From a virus, in the IMG/VR virus record IMGVR_UViG_3300020472_000040, positions 1 through 50,666 of that record: DNA of 50,666 nucleotides; one strand, written 5' to 3'. Below the pieces are notes generated by a model, which saw nothing but the letters and a program-made list of their open reading frames with translations, ran no database searches and was not told the origin of the DNA. Below, piece by piece: positions 11,513 through 41,276 of the stretch; within the stretch, counting starts at the first letter, position 1; every line of letters begins with the position of its first letter. The position numbers and the translations under genes were made by a program.

Positions 11513-11598
11513 TATAACTGTAAAAGTAAAAATAATATAATTAAAAATAAAATAGCTTTATCTATTTTATCTGGAGGAGGTTTAAGATTCCAACCCAT
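11512..11598 (-). CDS. Small membrane protein coupled to the lysozyme gene (28 aa)
   Basis: The ATG lies inside the last codons of the lysozyme gene, in another frame. The product is MGWNLKPPPDKIDKAILFLI followed by more hydrophobic residues (ILFLLLQL). A Pro-rich polar head and one C-terminal membrane span directly after an endolysin gene suggest a lysis accessory role (small holin, antiholin or similar), by position only. Confidence 0.62.
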   Translation of the reverse strand: MGWNLKPPPDKIDKAILFLIILFLLLQL

Positions 11599-12037
11599 TG
11601 ATAATACTACTTAAATCTTTTGCTCTGTTAGGTGTTTGTCTTGCCCATAAACTATCAAGCATTTCTTCTGAGGCTCTTGATAAATCTCCCTCGTCTAACG
11701 CCTTTAGAAAATTTTTAAATTTAAGTACACCATACTTACCTAATTGATATACCATTTCTACTAGCACTCCTTTAACTACATCAATAGTATTTTGGTCTAA
11801 GCCTTGAGTGTATATGTTATCTACTTTACCCTCAAAAATTTCCATAGCTCCTTCATATGCTCTATCAAAATCTTTATCAAAGAGTTCTTCCCAGCCCTCT
11901 TTAGTTGTTGGTAAAGTTTCTCCGTCAAGTATCTTATGTCCAAAACCCCCAGTTAAAAAACCCTCGGTATCGGTGTATGGTTCAAGACGGAACCCTTCAT
12001 GAAGTTTAATTCTAGTCTTTACTGCTTCTATGTTCAT
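11582..12037 (-). CDS. Endolysin, T4-type lysozyme (GH24)
   Basis: This 151-residue muramidase cleaves peptidoglycan between N-acetylmuramic acid and N-acetylglucosamine. The triad of T4 lysozyme (E11, D20, T26) is present as E14 (LHEGFRLEPY), D23 (TDTEG) and T29 (FLTGGFGH). No signal peptide is seen, so release would need a holin; the 28-residue membrane protein next to it and the holin-like gene at 1740 are candidates. It overlaps the upstream gene by four bases (ATGA). Confidence 0.94.
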   Translation of the reverse strand: MNIEAVKTRIKLHEGFRLEPYTDTEGFLTGGFGHKILDGETLPTTKEGWEELFDKDFDRAYEGAMEIFEGKVDNIYTQGLDQNTIDVVKGVLVEMVYQLGKYGVLKFKNFLKALDEGDLSRASEEMLDSLWARQTPNRAKDLSSIINGLES

Positions 12038-12435
12038 TTGTTTTCTCCTTCTTTGTAAAATGTTTCATTAAAGATTTGTTTTATTGGTATGAGTACACAC
12101 TTAGAAGCCTTACTATCTCCTACATTTTTTGTAAGTTTATCTTTGTATGTATCTACAATTTTTTTAAGTATAGGTGTAGGAAAAACAAGGGTACAAAATT
12201 CTCCCTCGTCTAACTCTAATCGGTGAAACCAGTAATCACTTTCAGTTTTATATATACCACTTGGTTTTCCTCTATACTCATACTCAATAGCTATGTTTCC
12301 AGTCTTTCTCCACCAAGACCTTTCACTTTTAACCTCAATAGTTTTGTTCTCAAACATATCTTTAACTTTATTTTCTCTTACTTGTCCGTAAGCCAAGTCA
12401 ATATCAAACTTTGTAAATCCTTTTTTTCTAGGCAT
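12034..12435 (-). CDS. Probable PD-(D/E)XK nuclease-like phage protein
   Basis: This 133-residue protein has the layout of a widespread phage restriction-endonuclease-fold family: FDIDLAYGQVRENKV near the N-terminus, then the core IEVKSERSWWRKTGN (E34, K36), IAIEYEYRGKPSGI and SDYWFHRLE. E34-x-K36 would be the metal and catalytic pair. It could join the other nucleases in DNA turnover. It sits between the lysozyme and the glucosaminidase, overlapping both slightly. Substrate unknown. Confidence 0.7.
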   Translation of the reverse strand: MPRKKGFTKFDIDLAYGQVRENKVKDMFENKTIEVKSERSWWRKTGNIAIEYEYRGKPSGIYKTESDYWFHRLELDEGEFCTLVFPTPILKKIVDTYKDKLTKNVGDSKASKCVLIPIKQIFNETFYKEGENK

Positions 12436-12970
12436 TATTTAAATATCCCTTCTTATAAAGATAGTTTATTGTGTTAATTAATTTTTGTTCATACTCTTCG
12501 TCTTCTGCATATATCTTTAGAGTATTAATTAATTTATTTAAATCTTGATTATTAGATAAGTCTTGTGTTATTATTTCAAATCTAAAATGATGGTACAACT
12601 TACTCGTGTTTAACATATGCATATAATCTTTAACTGAATCACATTTGTTTTTATATTTTCTTAATTTTATTTTACTATTATCTAAAGAAATAATATAAGG
12701 TTTGTCGGTATTAAATTCTTTAATCCCAAACAAATTGTTTCCTTGTTCTGCAAATCTTGAGGTACCATACCCACTTTCAAGACTTGCTTGTCCTACTACA
12801 ATAGGTAGTGGTATACTATTCTCATACCCCATTATATTGTTATACTCGTTAGCACATTTTATAACTTGCTCTACGAATTCTTGTTCGTTTGAGTAAACAA
12901 ACCCACTATCCTTACCACAATTACTTATAAAAAAAAGTAAGAAAGATAAGAATATTATTTTTTTAATCAT
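12428..12970 (-). CDS. Lipoprotein N-acetylglucosaminidase-like peptidoglycan hydrolase (Bax/FlgJ type)
   Basis: This 180-residue protein starts with a lipoprotein signal (hydrophobic MIKKIIFLSFLLFFISN, then C18). The catalytic region has QASLESGYGTSRFAEQGNNL (61-80) then FGIKEF, typical of the Bax/GH73 glucosaminidases, with E65 as the general acid. Anchored in the envelope, it could loosen peptidoglycan from outside the cytoplasm, independently of a holin. It is the second wall hydrolase in this arm. It overlaps the next upstream gene by ATGA. Confidence 0.88.
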   Translation of the reverse strand: MIKKIIFLSFLLFFISNCGKDSGFVYSNEQEFVEQVIKCANEYNNIMGYENSIPLPIVVGQASLESGYGTSRFAEQGNNLFGIKEFNTDKPYIISLDNSKIKLRKYKNKCDSVKDYMHMLNTSKLYHHFRFEIITQDLSNNQDLNKLINTLKIYAEDEEYEQKLINTINYLYKKGYLNNA

Positions 12971-13176
12971 AATTTAATAGCTAAAGTAATTAAAATTCCT
13001 GCTAAGAGTATAATTATAAAGAGTAATTCTATTCCTAGTATTGTGTGATACCAAATCCACCTAGTTTTATAAGCATTATCTACTGTCAAATCTTCTGGGT
13101 CTGGTTCAGTATTATAATTAGCTATATCTTTTGTGGGGTTTTGTACCCATAATGTTTTTATTATTCTTTTAAGCAT
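12967..13176 (-). CDS. Small membrane protein (69 aa)
   Basis: A soluble N-terminal part of about 43 residues is followed by one membrane span (LGIELLFIIILLAGILITLA). The ATG lies only eight bases beyond the TATAAT of an exact promoter (13185-13213), so its message would be leaderless or nearly so. Its stop overlaps the start of the wall hydrolase lipoprotein gene, which suggests a joint envelope or lysis role. Confidence 0.68.
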   Translation of the reverse strand: MLKRIIKTLWVQNPTKDIANYNTEPDPEDLTVDNAYKTRWIWYHTILGIELLFIIILLAGILITLAIKL

Positions 13177-13184
13177 AGTATTAT

Positions 13185-13213
13185 ATTATATCATATTATT
13201 TAACTAATGTCAA
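13185..13213 (-). promoter_or_regulatory. Exact sigma-70 promoter for the wall-hydrolase operon
   Basis: Minus-strand TTGACA (13213-13208), 17-base spacer, TATAAT (13190-13185) with TGA before the -10. It overlaps the end of the 51-residue gene at 13200-13355 and lies directly before the ATG at 13176. Confidence 0.9.
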
Positions 13214-13355
13214 ATTGTTTTTCAAATAATTTAAATTCTTCTTCGTAATCATTTGTAATAGTATTTATTTTAGATATACATTGAGCCTCATCTATTTTAG
13301 CATTATAATATTCATCTAATATTTTAACGATATTATACATCCATTCGTTAGGCAT
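13200..13355 (-). CDS. Hypothetical protein (51 aa)
   Basis: Starts MPNEWMYNIVKILDEYYNAK, with one Cys and an acidic helical rest. It overlaps the end of the upstream gene by eight bases and carries a promoter in its last codons. No family recognised. Confidence 0.55.
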   Translation of the reverse strand: MPNEWMYNIVKILDEYYNAKIDEAQCISKINTITNDYEEEFKLFEKQFDIS

Positions 13356-13632
13356 TGTTTATTTCCCCTAAATCTATATTCAATCTTTCAAGTAGCTCTT
13401 CATCTTTACACATAGAATAGTCAGCATAGTTTTCTTCTATGCCAAAAGGATTTGCATTAAAGAAATCTATTAGTTGCTCTCGCATAATATCCATAGCAAG
13501 TTGACCCAATCTAATTTGTTTAATGATATACATTTCATTATCTGAAAAATGTTTTTCATACTCAACACCTATCTCTTCTTGATACTGTTCAAATTTATTT
13601 TCAAGATACTCATCATGTTCTAACATACTCAT
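13348..13632 (-). CDS. Hypothetical acidic protein (94 aa)
   Basis: Helical acidic protein (LEHDEYLENKFEQYQEEI, then KHFSDNEMYIIKQIRLGQLA). I place the start at the first ATG (13632); upstream codons include a TTG at 13644 that overlaps the previous stop. Another ATG is two codons on. No family recognised. Confidence 0.55.
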   Translation of the reverse strand: MSMLEHDEYLENKFEQYQEEIGVEYEKHFSDNEMYIIKQIRLGQLAMDIMREQLIDFFNANPFGIEENYADYSMCKDEELLERLNIDLGEINNA

Positions 13633-13637
13633 TACTA

Positions 13638-13835
13638 TTACCAATCTAAAAATAGTTGCGACTCATTCAATAACCCCTCATAAGAACTATCAAATACATC
13701 TACTTGGTTAGTACCATACTTATCAATAAATAATTGTCTGGTATGTGTTAAAGATAATTCTTCTTCTTGCATTTTATCTAATAAGTACCAAGAATATTCT
13801 TGCATTTCCATTAACCAATTTTTTATTTTACTCAT
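13638..13835 (-). CDS. Hypothetical protein (65 aa)
   Basis: Trp/Glu-rich small protein (MSKIKNWLMEMQEYSWYLLD start), part of a tight row of small leftward genes. No family recognised. Confidence 0.55.
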   Translation of the reverse strand: MSKIKNWLMEMQEYSWYLLDKMQEEELSLTHTRQLFIDKYGTNQVDVFDSSYEGLLNESQLFLDW

Positions 13836-14336: not shown

Positions 14337-15236
14337 TTATTCTTTATTGTTTCCATAGTTATATAAATCGTGAACAAAGATACCCAAACCAACTGGATTT
14401 GTTTCAGCTATCTCAATCATTTCATCAACTGTTAAATGTCCCAAGTCATCATCAGTTAAGGGTTCACCATTTGAATATACATCTATGTCATCTTCAACAC
14501 TATCCCAATTTGTAGTGTAGGATTTATTATATTTAGTAGAATAGTTTCCGTAATTACTATAACTACCATCATAATTTCCATACAAATCATAATCACTTAA
14601 CCAATTTGACTTAACAACTTTTTTACCTTTGTCAATGTCATAGTCATAGCCAACACCACGACTAATAGAATAAGTGTTAGACACCCAACCTACATTCTTA
14701 ACATCTTTACCCTCATCTTGATTAATGATAGTAAACTCTTGCGTCTTACCATCAAGAAACAATAACTTGTCCGAGCCTATTAAATCTTCAAGTGATTCCG
14801 TCCACTCGGCATTGTAAAGTAAGTTAGGATTGTTAAGTAATTGAGGTCTTATCACCCACTTAATAAATTGGTGGGTGTCCGACTTGTTCTTATCAATCAT
14901 TGGTGTTGGTAGCTTTGCTCCATTATGCATTACCCATAAATCTCTATCAGCTCCATTCTCACCTTTTTTTAAGACTTGGAATGGGTGTGATAAATCTCTA
15001 CAAGTATTACCTGCTGTTGTAAATCTGAAATGAATACCAACTTGTGTATTCAAATCTTTATAGCTCTTCCACATTTTGTGAATGTCCTTATAGTTTTTTG
15101 GAACTATCTTATGCGTATGGATTTTACCTTTGTTGTAAAACATAACTCCAAACCCATCAGAATTATTCTGATAAGCACATTCCATAAGTGTTTCATCTAA
15201 CTCTCTAGGATTATTAGCTTTAATTATTAAACACAT
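14337..15236 (-). CDS. Class II glutamine amidotransferase-like (Ntn hydrolase) protein
   Basis: This 299-residue protein begins Met-Cys, so after Met removal Cys2 would be the N-terminal nucleophile that releases ammonia from glutamine or attacks an amide. NSDGFG (25-30), HFRFTT (69-74), SHPF (83-86) and WVMHNG (101-106) match class II amidotransferases. A Tyr/Asn/Ser-rich low-complexity stretch (about 222-245) and an acidic C-terminus follow. It is 45 bases downstream of an amidoligase gene; such pairs are predicted in other phages and bacteria to make or modify peptides. Confidence 0.85.
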   Translation of the reverse strand: MCLIIKANNPRELDETLMECAYQNNSDGFGVMFYNKGKIHTHKIVPKNYKDIHKMWKSYKDLNTQVGIHFRFTTAGNTCRDLSHPFQVLKKGENGADRDLWVMHNGAKLPTPMIDKNKSDTHQFIKWVIRPQLLNNPNLLYNAEWTESLEDLIGSDKLLFLDGKTQEFTIINQDEGKDVKNVGWVSNTYSISRGVGYDYDIDKGKKVVKSNWLSDYDLYGNYDGSYSNYGNYSTKYNKSYTTNWDSVEDDIDVYSNGEPLTDDDLGHLTVDEMIEIAETNPVGLGIFVHDLYNYGNNKE

Positions 15237-15281
15237 ATATTTACTTTCCTTTCATTGTTGTTATTTAAAGTTAAAAGTTTG

Positions 15282-16694
15282 TTAGGCATTACTAACATTT
15301 TCAAATTGCCTTGCGATACTCCGACTAGGTGTTCCAAGTACATATCCATTAGTAATTAACCAACTCCAGAAATTAGGATATTCACACCTAACTTCTGGTT
15401 TCTTCATGTAGTGAACAAAGGCTTTATAGTTTAAACTTTGTTCTCTTATTGAAGTCTGTTTCAAATAATGTACCAATGCGTCAGTAAATTCTAAGGCTCT
15501 CATAAAACCATACTCCGATACATTACTCCTAAATATTCTTAATTCTACTGTATTTCTATTGCTTGTATTAACAGCTTGGTATCTATCGTCATTTAGATAC
15601 TGCCCATCTTTAACATTTTTGGGGTGAGATAAACACCAACGATTCATATTTCTTCCAGCAATATCTTCTATAAATCTCTTATTCTTTTTTTCATTAATGA
15701 ATACTAACATTTTACCAATTTCAAGAGGGGTTAATGCTTTTTTATTAATATGAATATGCAACCCTGCACAATTAGTATTCCAACCCTTAACATAGGTACT
15801 CCCATTTTCATCTGTCCAATAATTACTATTAAACATATCTGAAAATCTATCTTTTAAAAATTTATATGTACTCGGAGCAGTACATATCTCAAACCCACCA
15901 TTACCTTCTTCTAATGAGCCATCTCTTTTACATAAAAACCAATCGTTATAATCGGTTAGTGTTTCAGGAAACTCATCAGGCATTGAATTTCTAGCCATAA
16001 CCTCTAATTCTACACCATATAACAATGCCTTAGTAGTATTCAAATTAGTATCAATAGTTTCATCTTCTCGATACTTAACTCCAATTCGTTCTTCAACCCG
16101 TGTTGTATAATTCGAACAGTATCTCTCATGGTCATAACAACTATCTTCATCTTCATAATTTTCATCATATTCTTCTTCTCGGTATGCGTCAGCACAACTC
16201 CCACACACCTCGTATTCTGAATTATACTCATCATCTGGAAAAATTTCTTCACACCTATTACAAGTAAATACATCATCTTCAAACATATCATATAACAACC
16301 ATTGTTCAATGTTTCTATATAAGTCGTTGAGTTTACTGCCTAAGTCTAATTCACACCTTCTCGCTCCAAAATTATTATTAGAAACATCTAGTTCATCTAC
16401 ATTAATTTGATATGGTCTTACTTCATGGCATAATTGCATTAATTCATTTAGTATATTTTGATTATTAAAAAAACCTCTCTCAATTATATCTTGATACTCA
16501 ACTGATTCATATAAAAAATCTAAGTCTGTATCATTATGTACATAACACTTATATACTTTAATCAAATTATATAAATCTCTTCTTTGCTCTCGGCTATTTC
16601 TTTTCCATAGCTTTTTTATTAGTCTATCTCGATAATTAAAAACTTGATATTGGTATTCCTGAATATCTGTTTCTACATTTTCATAAGATGGCAT
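15282..16694 (-). CDS. Amidoligase (ATP-dependent COOH-NH2 ligase) with zinc ribbon
   Basis: This 470-residue protein has an N-terminal helical part and a treble-clef or zinc-ribbon region with C145, C148, C164 and C167 in an acidic context. The catalytic domain (about 222-410) has GVELEV (227-232), KRDGSL and GGFEICTAP (256-273), GLHIHI (311-316) and VELRIFRS (383-390). These are the conserved acids and basic residues of the phage amidoligase family related to glutamine synthetase. The enzyme should join a carboxylate to an amine using ATP; substrate unknown. It is paired with a class II amidotransferase and, more distantly, a GGCT-like gene. Confidence 0.86.
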   Translation of the reverse strand: MPSYENVETDIQEYQYQVFNYRDRLIKKLWKRNSREQRRDLYNLIKVYKCYVHNDTDLDFLYESVEYQDIIERGFFNNQNILNELMQLCHEVRPYQINVDELDVSNNNFGARRCELDLGSKLNDLYRNIEQWLLYDMFEDDVFTCNRCEEIFPDDEYNSEYEVCGSCADAYREEEYDENYEDEDSCYDHERYCSNYTTRVEERIGVKYREDETIDTNLNTTKALLYGVELEVMARNSMPDEFPETLTDYNDWFLCKRDGSLEEGNGGFEICTAPSTYKFLKDRFSDMFNSNYWTDENGSTYVKGWNTNCAGLHIHINKKALTPLEIGKMLVFINEKKNKRFIEDIAGRNMNRWCLSHPKNVKDGQYLNDDRYQAVNTSNRNTVELRIFRSNVSEYGFMRALEFTDALVHYLKQTSIREQSLNYKAFVHYMKKPEVRCEYPNFWSWLITNGYVLGTPSRSIARQFENVSNA

Positions 16695-16709
16695 TTTGTA
16701 CTCCTTCTG

Positions 16710-16889
16710 TTAGTCATTAATATAATTAGTAAATAGTTTACTACTAAATTTTTCATTGTCAAGATAAAAAATATCCATAGTGCTATTTATAAAATCTTGT
16801 AAATGAGATTCAGCAATATAGTTTCCTTTAACATCTTGTTTTAATTGCTTAAAACCCTTTGCGAATTTTATATAATCTTCTCTAGTCAT
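16710..16889 (-). CDS. Hypothetical protein (59 aa)
   Basis: The ATG at 16889 follows AAAGGGGAATAAAATT, a strong ribosome site. MTREDYIKFAKGFKQLKQDV start, mixed-charge helical protein. It lies 15 bases upstream of the amidoligase gene, so the two are probably co-translated. No family recognised. Confidence 0.65.
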   Translation of the reverse strand: MTREDYIKFAKGFKQLKQDVKGNYIAESHLQDFINSTMDIFYLDNEKFSSKLFTNYIND

Positions 16890-21625: not shown

Positions 21626-21895
21626 ATGCCTACTTATACATTTAGAAATAAAAAAACAAAAGAAGTTTATGATGTGGTTATGTCATATGAAGAGTTATTA
21701 AAATATAGAAAGAAACGAAACATAGAACAAGTACTACAGCCTTATAAGGTATTTCGTTTAAATGATATGGGTGGACCAGAAGATAGTTTTAGAGAATGGT
21801 GTCGTCAATCTGTTGATGATATAGACACTAATAAATCAAATAATTTCAGACAATCAAAGAAGGAGTATCTATATTCAGATGTCAAAGATAAATAA
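21626..21895 (+). CDS. FmdB-like small phage protein lacking zinc Cys (89 aa)
   Basis: The start MPTYTFRNKKTKEVYDVVMS follows the FmdB zinc-ribbon pattern (MPTYxFxCxxCGxxFxxxMS), but the Cys pairs are replaced by Asn/Lys-Thr-Lys residues. Similar Cys-free versions are known in T4-like phages without known function. It lies between the terminase and a metallopeptidase-like gene. Confidence 0.65.
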   Translation: MPTYTFRNKKTKEVYDVVMSYEELLKYRKKRNIEQVLQPYKVFRLNDMGGPEDSFREWCRQSVDDIDTNKSNNFRQSKKEYLYSDVKDK

Positions 21896-22253
21896 GAAAA
21901 ACGAACTAAACGGTAAAATAGTAAGAATAGGGTTTGCAGATGTAGAACTTAAAGAACAAGCACCTCAATTTAAAAAATCAAACATGACAGATTGTTTTGG
22001 TCAATATACTCATAGAGAAAATTTAATTGAGATACAGCCTGGACTTTCTGATATAGATGAGGCAAATACATTGCTACATGAGATAATTCACGGATGTGTT
22101 TATATCTCATCGCTTAATACTGAGGGTCAACCACTATCTTCAGATAATGATGAAGAAGTAGTGGTTAACAGTCTTTCTAATTATTTAATACAAGTATTTA
22201 GAGATAATAAATGGTTACTTCCATATTTAAATAAAAAAGTACTTGACAAGTAG
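21879..22253 (+). CDS. HExxH metallopeptidase-like protein
   Basis: This 124-residue protein has LLHEIIHGCVYI, giving H67, E68 and H71 as zinc ligands and base. An acidic downstream patch DNDEEVVVNSLSNYL (E92/E93) could give the third ligand. This matches small phage zincins of the ImmA/SprT-like kind. It overlaps its upstream neighbour by 17 bases and lies just before the portal gene. Role could be in prohead processing or in blocking a host protein; neither is shown. Its last codons contain the -35 of the portal promoter. Confidence 0.72.
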   Translation: MSKINKKNELNGKIVRIGFADVELKEQAPQFKKSNMTDCFGQYTHRENLIEIQPGLSDIDEANTLLHEIIHGCVYISSLNTEGQPLSSDNDEEVVVNSLSNYLIQVFRDNKWLLPYLNKKVLDK

Positions 22254-37010: not shown

Positions 37011-37814
37011 ATGAACGACATACTAAAACGAATAAAGTTTATTTATGAATATGCTACACACTTACAAACAGATAATAGCCCTCCATTAGAATTAATTTAT
37101 AAGTTTATTAATGAACTAGATAAGAAAGAGGCAAAAGCTATCTTTCATAAATTTTCTAAAGATAAGTCTAGTGAAAGAATATTTAATGAAGAAAAAGCAG
37201 CATTAGACAGATTAAATGAAGATGAATTTAAAGAGAATACATTAGGAGCTGAGTTTAAAGGGTGGTTAAAACAATCAGAAGGAGCTGTAGATTTATTTAA
37301 GTTTGGTGTATTTGGAAGAACCGAAGGTAAGACAAAATTTAAAAAGTTTTTAAAACATACTTGTTTACAACACGATTTAATTCATTTCTTAAATGGATAT
37401 GATGTTACGCCATTAGGTGAGGTTGGAGTTATCACTTTTAATTTAGCTCAAGAATGGAGACCTTCTTTTGCAACAATATTATATGCCTCATTCTTAATGA
37501 GTATCAGAAATACTTTTCTACCATCTAAATATCCAGCCAATACACAATGGCATAAGGCAATAAAATATTCACCTCTTATGGTATTTTGTAAAGTTGTAAG
37601 AGAAGCATGGAAAAGAGGAAAACAATCTGAATGGTTTTTAACTGTAGATTGGAATGGTTATTTAGATACGGATTTAAAACAAGTTAAAGAAAAACTTAAA
37701 TTAGAAAAATCACCTACTTATTGGGATGAAGTTCAGCCTGTATGGGCAAGAGCTTTAAGACATTACAAAAAATATGAAAAAAACAAAAGAGAACGACAAG
37801 AAGATGTGGCGTGA
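37011..37814 (+). CDS. COQ4-like protein (ubiquinone biosynthesis family)
   Basis: This 267-residue protein carries the full COQ4 signature: H121, D122, H125 and E137 in HDLIHFLNGYDVTPLGE, that is HDxxHx11E, followed by VGVITFNLAQEWRPSFATIL. The C-terminal YWDEVQPVWARALRHYKKYE matches the family end. COQ4 binds a metal through this motif and takes part in ring modification (C1) and complex organisation in ubiquinone synthesis at the inner membrane. As a phage gene it would be an auxiliary metabolic gene or a reused fold. Flanked by small genes in the late arm. Confidence 0.85.
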   Translation: MNDILKRIKFIYEYATHLQTDNSPPLELIYKFINELDKKEAKAIFHKFSKDKSSERIFNEEKAALDRLNEDEFKENTLGAEFKGWLKQSEGAVDLFKFGVFGRTEGKTKFKKFLKHTCLQHDLIHFLNGYDVTPLGEVGVITFNLAQEWRPSFATILYASFLMSIRNTFLPSKYPANTQWHKAIKYSPLMVFCKVVREAWKRGKQSEWFLTVDWNGYLDTDLKQVKEKLKLEKSPTYWDEVQPVWARALRHYKKYEKNKRERQEDVA

Positions 37815-38764: not shown

Positions 38765-40804
38765 ATGGCATATGAAATACCAGTAGAATCACGACCAAGA
38801 GGAAGAATAAGTAATAGACCTATTACTGATATTCTTGATGACCAAGCGTCTAATCCTGTAATACCTTCTGCAGCTGTACAACAATATACTGACCAAACCG
38901 TACAGAGTAATGAACTTATGAGTTCTCCTACTACTGTAGGTACAACAACGGCTGGTCAACAAACTGTACAAGCTCCTAGTAATATAACTGCAACTACTGG
39001 AACAGGTACAAATATAGCAGCTCCTACTACTATACAACCTACTAGTGTTACTGCAGCAACAGCTGGAACTCCGCAAACTGTTGCAGGTGTTTCTGGAAGT
39101 GGTTTAACTCAACAAGTTACTGGTCAAACAAGAGGTACTGTTACTGGTGCTGCGTCTGGAGCAAACCAAACTGCTGGAAATGCTCAAGGTGTAATAACTG
39201 CTGCTGCTCAAGGACAAGTAAGTTCTGGAGCATTAGCTAGTGCTGTTACAGGACAAAGTGCTACTGTTCAAGCGCAAACATCTACATTACCAAGTGATAT
39301 TCAATCAGCAGTAGGAACAAACCCTGCGGCTGTTACTGCTACAGTTGTTAGTCAACCTACAAGTGTTGTTGCACAAATTGCTTCATTACCTGCAGATACT
39401 CTTGTTTCAGGACAATTAGAAACTTTATTAAGTGGAATTGATAGTGGTACTATTCCAACATGGGCAAGAGCTGCTGTTGAAGCAGTGGATGCAAACCTTG
39501 CTTCAAGAGGAATGAGTCGTTCTTCTATAGGTAGAGAAGCTTTAGTTAATTCTATTATTCAAAGTGCTATTCCAATCGCACAAGCTAATGCAACTCAACT
39601 ACAACAAGTAGCTATGGCTAATCTTAATAATCAACAACAAGCTGAAGTATTAACAAAACAACAACAATTTCAAGCTCAACTAACAGGAGCCGAGTTTCAA
39701 CAACAAGCTGCTTTAACAACTGCTGGTAATACTCAACAGTTATTAATGGCTAATTTAAATAATCAACAACAAGCTATTCTTTCTAGTGCACAACAACAGC
39801 AACAAGTAAGATTACAAAATCTTGCAAATAATCAACAAGGTGCTGTAACTAATGCTGAGTTACAACAACAAATGACAATGGCTGGGATGAATAATCAACA
39901 GTCTGTTGCTCTTGCTAATGCTCAGACAACTGCTGGTATGGATGTTCTTAATCTTAATAATGAACAACAAAAAGTAATTTCTAATTCTAATTTATTTAGA
40001 ACATTTGGTTTACAAAATTTAACAAACGAACAACAAGCTGTAATGCAAAATGCTGCTAATCTTGCAGCACTTGATATGGCTGAATTAACTAATAGACAAC
40101 AAGCTCAAGTATTAAATGCTCAGTCTTTTTTACAACTTGATATGACTAATCTTAGTAATTCTCAACAAGCTGCTATGTTAACTGCACAACAAAGACAACA
40201 AGCCATGTTATCTGACCAAGCTTCTGAAAATGCATCTAGACAATTTAATGCCACAAGTGATATGCAAACAGACCAATTTATGGCGAACCTTGCTTCAACT
40301 ATTTCACAAAATAATGCAGCTCGTGCAGATGCTATGTCTCAGTTTAATTCTACTCAAGAAAATCAAATAGCTCAAATTAATGCTGGTAATCAACTTGAAT
40401 CTGAAAGATTAACAGACCAACTTAATGCACAAATAGACCAGTTCAATTCTAACTTAGGTTTTCAAAAAGACCAATTTAATGCACAAAACTCTATGGCTAT
40501 AGAACAATCTAATGTACAATGGAGAAGACAAACAAATACAGCAAATACTGCAGGAGTTAATGCTGTTAATCAAGCAAACGCTATGAATGCTTTTAATCTT
40601 AGTAATCAAGGATTATCTTTTCTTTGGCAAGAAATGAGAGATGCTGCTAAGTGGGAATTTGAAGCTTCAGAAAATGATGATGATAGAGATGCTAAAATTA
40701 CTATAGCTGCTCTTGGTAACGAAGCAGCGGATACTGCTGCTAAAAGACAGTCTTTAGTTGACCTTGCTAACTGGGCAGCAGATTTATGGACTCAAGGACA
40801 ATAA
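38765..40804 (+). CDS. Large Gln/Asn/Ala-rich repetitive virion protein (679 aa)
   Basis: The N-terminal 240 residues are Thr/Ala/Gln/Val-rich. A folded-looking part follows (PTWARAAVEAVDANLASRGM and SIGREALVNSIIQSA). Then about twelve loose repeats of the form NLNNQQQA-x-L-x-x-A-Q occur to about residue 480, and helical Gln/Asn-rich segments (QFNAQNSMAIEQSNVQWRRQ). Similar helical repeat proteins are known in cyanophage virions. It may form a long fibre or line the DNA ejection path. It is in one operon with the acyltransferase-like gene. Confidence 0.75.
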   Translation: MAYEIPVESRPRGRISNRPITDILDDQASNPVIPSAAVQQYTDQTVQSNELMSSPTTVGTTTAGQQTVQAPSNITATTGTGTNIAAPTTIQPTSVTAATAGTPQTVAGVSGSGLTQQVTGQTRGTVTGAASGANQTAGNAQGVITAAAQGQVSSGALASAVTGQSATVQAQTSTLPSDIQSAVGTNPAAVTATVVSQPTSVVAQIASLPADTLVSGQLETLLSGIDSGTIPTWARAAVEAVDANLASRGMSRSSIGREALVNSIIQSAIPIAQANATQLQQVAMANLNNQQQAEVLTKQQQFQAQLTGAEFQQQAALTTAGNTQQLLMANLNNQQQAILSSAQQQQQVRLQNLANNQQGAVTNAELQQQMTMAGMNNQQSVALANAQTTAGMDVLNLNNEQQKVISNSNLFRTFGLQNLTNEQQAVMQNAANLAALDMAELTNRQQAQVLNAQSFLQLDMTNLSNSQQAAMLTAQQRQQAMLSDQASENASRQFNATSDMQTDQFMANLASTISQNNAARADAMSQFNSTQENQIAQINAGNQLESERLTDQLNAQIDQFNSNLGFQKDQFNAQNSMAIEQSNVQWRRQTNTANTAGVNAVNQANAMNAFNLSNQGLSFLWQEMRDAAKWEFEASENDDDRDAKITIAALGNEAADTAAKRQSLVDLANWAADLWTQGQ

Positions 40805-40820
40805 TATAATATAAAAAAAA

Positions 40821-41276
40821 ATGAATGATGTAGAAGCTGCAGTACATTTAGTAAGTACTGCTAAAGTTTATAAAAATATATTTAAAGGAGATGTTGAACA
40901 TATTCTACAACAAGTTTTACCACCAATAAAACTTAATCAGTATAGAGTTTTTAGAAGAGGAGATAGACCTTTTGCTTATACTAGTTGGGCTTTTATGAAT
41001 AATAACTCTTCTGAAAAATTTAAAAGAACAGGTTTAATAGAAGACGAAAGCTGGTGGAACAATGGTAATAATATATGGCATATGGACACTATTTGTAATG
41101 ATGGTAATTTACTAACATTACATAGATGGACACAAAGAAATTTAGCTGAACAAGTTGGTAATAAAAAGAAAATAAATTGGATACGATTAGGTTACGATAA
41201 GTTCGGCGGAGTTAAAGTTAAAAAACAAGGATACGCATTTACAAAAGGAGAAAAAGAAAATGGGTTCGATAGTTAA
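40821..41276 (+). CDS. RTX toxin-activating lysine acyltransferase-like (HlyC family) protein
   Basis: This 151-residue protein aligns with HlyC along most of its length. VHLVSTAK carries H9 (HlyC H23), then LPPIKLNQYRVFRRGDRPFA (HlyC has LPAIRANQY), AYTSWAFMN (HlyC AYCSWANLS) and ESWWNNGNNIWHMDTIC with D89 (HlyC D92). HlyC moves fatty acids from acyl-carrier protein to lysines of RTX toxins, enabling membrane insertion. No RTX toxin is in the window; the overlapping downstream gene makes a lysine-rich, membrane-active-looking protein, the best substrate candidate. Confidence 0.82.
   Translation: MNDVEAAVHLVSTAKVYKNIFKGDVEHILQQVLPPIKLNQYRVFRRGDRPFAYTSWAFMNNNSSEKFKRTGLIEDESWWNNGNNIWHMDTICNDGNLLTLHRWTQRNLAEQVGNKKKINWIRLGYDKFGGVKVKKQGYAFTKGEKENGFDS

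Follow-up and report, generated by a model that had tools for sequence, protein, structure and literature searches.

What would a marine phage gain from an amidoligase gene lying directly beside a glutamine amidotransferase gene, with a gamma-glutamyl cyclotransferase (GGCT) gene further along the same strand? The question is raised by a virus record of 50.7 kb and 33% G+C (IMGVR_UViG_3300020472_000040), analyzed here over a stretch of 50,666 nucleotides that we call the window. Its terminase is nearest to those of the Pelagibacter phages HTVC115P, HTVC103P and HTVC104P (73-79% identity), and as far as sequence can tell the virus is likely marine and Pelagibacter-phage-like, with a Pelagibacter-like host; tblastn searches of these three phages with the ligase, the amidotransferase or GGCT gave zero matches. 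A preliminary description of the locus had proposed that the three genes form a candidate peptide-modifying pathway. Its observation is confirmed, with all three open reading frames (ORFs) in place on the minus strand (Table 1) and the ligase motifs GVELEV (residues 227-232), GLHIHI (311-316) and VELRIFRS (383-390) present, and its interpretation is partly supported. The reading that we favor, with a probability of about 0.5, is that ligase and amidotransferase make up an enzyme of two parts that draws on glutamine and ATP to build an amide bond, and that GGCT serves this gamma-glutamyl chemistry as an accessory.

Table 1. Positions in the window of the three enzyme genes and of the neighboring features discussed in the text.
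Feature	Position	Strand	Basis or remark
GGCT/AIG2-like gamma-glutamyl cyclotransferase, 128 aa	2353-2739	minus	PF06094, 8.6e-11
Lysozyme	11582-12037	minus	wall hydrolase
Glucosaminidase	12428-12970	minus	wall hydrolase
Small 65-aa protein with the N-terminal motif KNWLMEMQEY	13638-13835	minus	found with the pair in two groups of carriers
Class II (Ntn, Cys2) glutamine amidotransferase, 299 aa	14337-15236	minus	ORF
Amidoligase_2-type ligase, 470 aa	15282-16694	minus	ORF
CxxC...CxxC zinc-binding segment of the amidoligase (residues 145-167)	16194-16262	minus	alignment

The ligase consists of a helical N-terminal region, the CxxC...CxxC segment and a C-terminal glutamine-synthetase-like catalytic domain (residues ~224-450). 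Across an alignment of 24 sequences, residues E229, E231, D258, E269, H313, R348, E384 and R386 are invariant and the glutamine-synthetase-type pattern of metal and ATP residues (ExE, DGS...E, HxH, R, ExR) is kept; we take the invariant positions to correspond to the residues for metal, ATP and substrate in glutamine synthetase. The relatives do not display the loss of metal or ATP-binding residues that, by the preliminary description, would have spoken against its reading. The zinc motif (C145-x2-C148...C164-x2-C167) is equally real, with C145, C148 and C167 invariant among the 24 relatives, while the suggestion that it chooses a protein target is speculation. As a single sequence, the window ligase matches the Pfam Amidoligase_2 family (PF12224) weakly (E=0.15) and the PHROG amidoligase family at 1e-9, and 13 of the 24 aligned homologues match PF12224, the best at 5.9e-7. 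PF12224 alone, run on the window's own record, overlooks the ligase gene, and therefore an absence called by this one model carries no meaning here. The predicted structure (mean pLDDT 82) resembles gamma-glutamylmethylamide synthetase (GmaS), YbdK, glutamine synthetase and PafA in the PDB (prob 0.94-1.00, low TM), the best matches being GmaS and YbdK, both gamma-glutamyl ligases, and in BFVD it resembles phage amidoligases (E 1e-17), the Tesla enzyme among them.

The amidotransferase begins 45 bases past the ligase stop and carries a cysteine as its second residue; C2, R71, H84, N105, G106 and D120 are invariant among 26 sequences. Its own match to Pfam GATase_4 is weak (E=0.015, single sequence), and 16 of the 26 homologues match that family, the best at 3.2e-6. 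A model of moderate quality (pLDDT 72.6) retrieved the GlmS glutaminase and EgtC about equally with Foldseek (prob 1.00, E 2e-4), and the GlmS-type residues are common to glutaminases and EgtC-like gamma-glutamyl hydrolases, so that they do not separate the two. TM-scores in the PDB fold searches with ligase and amidotransferase were low (about 0.2-0.5), which supports the fold class and not the details; PDB sequence searches with the profiles of both proteins gave nothing useful. The GGCT match to PF06094 (GGACT) is strong and above the cutoff, its relatives invariantly keep the YGTLK motif and E77 (the catalytic Glu), and its profile aligns with UPF0131 and AIG2-like (GGACT) structures. Ratios of non-synonymous to synonymous changes (dN/dS) against close relatives are 0.30-0.33 for the ligase, 0.13-0.22 for the amidotransferase and 0.23-0.58 for GGCT, all well below 1, and thus correspond to purifying selection on all three genes. 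Overall, the family assignments of the preliminary description are backed by residues and predicted folds, and its functional link between the three families by these and by co-occurrence.

The gene survey that had been named beforehand as a check came out positive. Of 40 viral loci retrieved by the amidotransferase alone, 35 are on contigs that extend to the site, and each of these has the ligase immediately upstream. When loci were instead chosen by the ligase alone, the amidotransferase adjoins it in 78/78 untruncated viral loci (75 downstream, 3 upstream) and in 72/76 bacterial loci, one of these 72 as part of the same open frame. That case (L270, 1533-3842, a Clostridia MAG) is weak proof of a fusion, since it is a single contig and the amidotransferase cysteine would be internal. 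GGCT, sought in 43 records, is on the same strand in all 13 records with the pair and absent from all 26 relatives without it, 11 of which are 47-53 kb long and probably near-complete; the remaining 4 records hold GGCT only, on contigs that end before the pair's site. Of the viral loci selected by the ligase, 46 continue for 6 kb or more downstream, and 31 of them have a same-strand GGCT within 6 kb; at least 7 further loci, from the window's own group, carry it at a distance of about 11 kb (11.6 kb in the window), and in six distant loci the flank contains none. The records are kin to one another, and these counts are not independent trials.

The trio is also kept on other backbones. Carriers G007-G010 and G013 have a polymerase about 23% identical to that of the window and no terminase match, and in G013 the three genes plus two others are the only recognizable genes in common with the window. 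Conversely, three carriers of the pair (MEP402, ctgrD200 and Tesla) do without GGCT, which is therefore accessory and not essential to the chemistry. Outside this phage group, an amidoligase lies beside a GGCT gene in C. difficile Tn6164 (PMC3485107), and linked trios have been reported from RIO-1-like phages (PMC5498523). Two side observations concern the surroundings of GGCT. A small protein of the window (21879-22253, plus strand) has a metalloprotease-like motif, LHEIIHG, and its homologues in G007-G010 sit between the amidotransferase and GGCT; in the distant carrier L022, proteins judged by eye to be 2-oxoglutarate-dependent oxygenase-like (12930-13502, 15624-16181 and 16162-16806) surround GGCT.

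From the tight pairing, the nearly fixed order and the 45-base gap, we infer that ligase and amidotransferase are two subunits of one enzyme and form a complex. The N-terminal cysteine of the class II amidotransferase would hydrolyze glutamine and hand the ammonia, presumably by channelling, to the amidoligase. There, a glutamine-synthetase-like active site would use ATP to phosphorylate a carboxylate before forming the amide, and the zinc-binding N-terminal part may help to hold the substrate. GGCT could then remove or recycle gamma-glutamyl products of the same chemistry. An analogy, and an analogy only, is offered by MurT/GatD, whose folds (a Mur ligase and a class I amidotransferase) are unrelated to those of our pair. 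The logic of this lipid II amidating enzyme is the same, with an ATP-dependent ligase subunit and a glutamine amidotransferase subunit (PMC3267633).

The association of the three genes is itself already described, from phiEco32, RIO-1, LUZ24-like and other phages (PMC5498523; PMC10580990). The closest known case is the proposed peptidoglycan modification cassette of the RIO-1-like phages RIO-1 (gp8-gp14) and PSA-HP1 (Hardies 2013, as cited in PMC5498523). RIO-1 has GGCT, the amidotransferase, a COOH-NH2 ligase, the amidoligase and an ATP-grasp gene in one run, and the LUZ24 and phiEco32 sets are similar. As in the window, these phages combine GGCT, a class II amidotransferase and an Amidoligase_2 protein in one genome, and their cassettes lie in the early or replication region; hhalign of the window's three families against cassette profiles gave 95% (E 3.7e-8), 82% (E 1e-5) and 98% (E 5.8e-13). 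The differences lie in layout and content. GGCT is 11.6 kb from the pair in the window instead of in the same run, and the zinc-binding N-terminus of the window ligase is missing from the RIO-1, LUZ24 and phiEco32 enzymes. No ATP-grasp gene or second ligase was found among the window proteins scanned, and the second COOH-NH2 ligase (PF14395) is absent from the window-type records G001, G003, G007 and G013, in a search that was positive in the LUZ24 and phiEco32 controls and overlooked RIO-1's divergent copy. The window set is thus a reduced, zinc-ribbon version of the RIO-1/phiEco32/LUZ24 cassette.

A homologous pair, adjacent and in the same order as in the window, is found in the OM43 phages MEP401 and MEP402 and in Marvin-type mycobacteriophages (Tesla), at 23-29% identity, and MEP402 and Tesla differ from the window in having no GGCT; the amidoligase and amidotransferase pair of such phages was described earlier (PMC10580990). 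More remote is the likeness to EgtA/EgtC and gamma-glutamylmethylamide synthetase, which share with the window the folds of a glutamine-synthetase-like gamma-glutamyl ligase and a class II Ntn hydrolase, but are distant in sequence, and the window has no ergothioneine or methylamine context. Our search of the literature found no amidoligase-family enzyme with a demonstrated activity.

The gamma-glutamyl enzymes nevertheless define the main rival to an amide-forming pair, because the ligase's best structural matches are gamma-glutamyl ligases (GmaS and YbdK at the top in the PDB) and EgtC removes gamma-glutamyl groups. Here, the ligase would join the glutamate gamma-carboxyl to an amine of a protein, peptide or small molecule (compare EgtA, PuuA and GmaS), the EgtC-like Ntn hydrolase would take this tag off again, and GGCT would clear it as 5-oxoproline. 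A single bond type would then be the target of all three enzymes, which accounts for GGCT, and the Ntn enzyme does resemble EgtC about as well as GlmS. However, one maker and two removers of the same bond are an odd set to retain, and the amidotransferase is linked to the ligase far more tightly than GGCT is, which is more what one would expect of a subunit than of an eraser; we regard the tagging cycle, taken as a whole, as possible if rather doubtful. A contribution to host nitrogen assimilation during infection, through nitrogen or glutathione metabolism, has been proposed for Phage-ZRK32, which carries an amidotransferase, an amidoligase, a glutathione synthase and GGCT (PMC10945688, in the text available to us). 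That text reports a growth effect of the phage with no mutational tie to these genes, no other nitrogen-assimilation genes were found among the window proteins scanned, and a larger substrate is suggested both by the zinc-binding N-terminus and by how little the ligase resembles true glutamine synthetase, all of which makes a nitrogen role quite unlikely here. As for a chance neighborhood of unrelated genes, the 11.6 kb that separate GGCT from the pair might be read that way, yet the adjacency of ligase and amidotransferase is near-obligate and GGCT accompanies the pair in 13/13 records against 0/26 without it. Kinship of the records weakens this count, but the differing backbones show the same pattern, and we give chance next to no weight.

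If the genes form an amide-forming enzyme with GGCT as its accessory, what is its target? Peptides of the host envelope are the usual guess, which we consider less likely than not; for phiEco32 and RIO-1-like phages, a role in wall modification and superinfection is put forward as a hypothesis (PMC5498523; PMC10580990). The preliminary description had pointed to peptidoglycan by way of two wall hydrolases in the same arm. Both genes exist, but they are present in one close relative only (L002) and missing from most, and the corresponding arm of the close carrier L009 has neither lysozyme nor glucosaminidase; we therefore rejected them as a sign of a wall target. In the window, the two flank a conserved gene, phrog_13596 (within 11582-12970, minus strand).

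Another candidate target is the 65-aa neighbor, which would make the locus a peptide-maturation module. The protein combines a conserved N-terminal motif with a variable acidic C-terminus and keeps its place next to the pair in two groups of carriers that differ in backbone. However, a third group of carriers (G013, L345-L371) lacks it, as does every isolate that has the pair, and on this ground it was rejected as a universal substrate; two weak relatives (L240 and L241) have no pair nearby, and annotated phages lack the protein. Maturation of this peptide is very improbable in our view, and the protein possibly lies outside the system. A further reading is that in marine hosts the minimal module (zinc-ribbon ligase, amidotransferase, GGCT and, in some phages, the 65-aa protein) both adds and takes off an amide or gamma-glutamyl mark of a kind not yet described, borne by one particular macromolecule of host or phage and having nothing to do with peptidoglycan; this joint claim we hold to be unlikely.

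Two further proteins of the window belong to other families of potential interest. An HlyC-like protein (RTX acyltransferase family, PF02794, 1.6e-17; 40821-41276, plus strand) lies amid virion genes and adjoins a 679-aa protein with no assigned family (38765-40804), which could be its target, and a Coq4-like protein (PF05019, 2.8e-9; 37011-37814, plus strand) lies amid late genes and has a relative in carriers G007 and G010.

What phage amidoligase cassettes act on has been a puzzle ever since such cassettes were proposed. With three genes in the window's group against five to seven in known cassettes, reconstitution and the hunt for a substrate would be simpler here, and because ligase and amidotransferase are paired nearly without exception in phages and bacteria alike, an enzyme of two subunits is clearly predicted.
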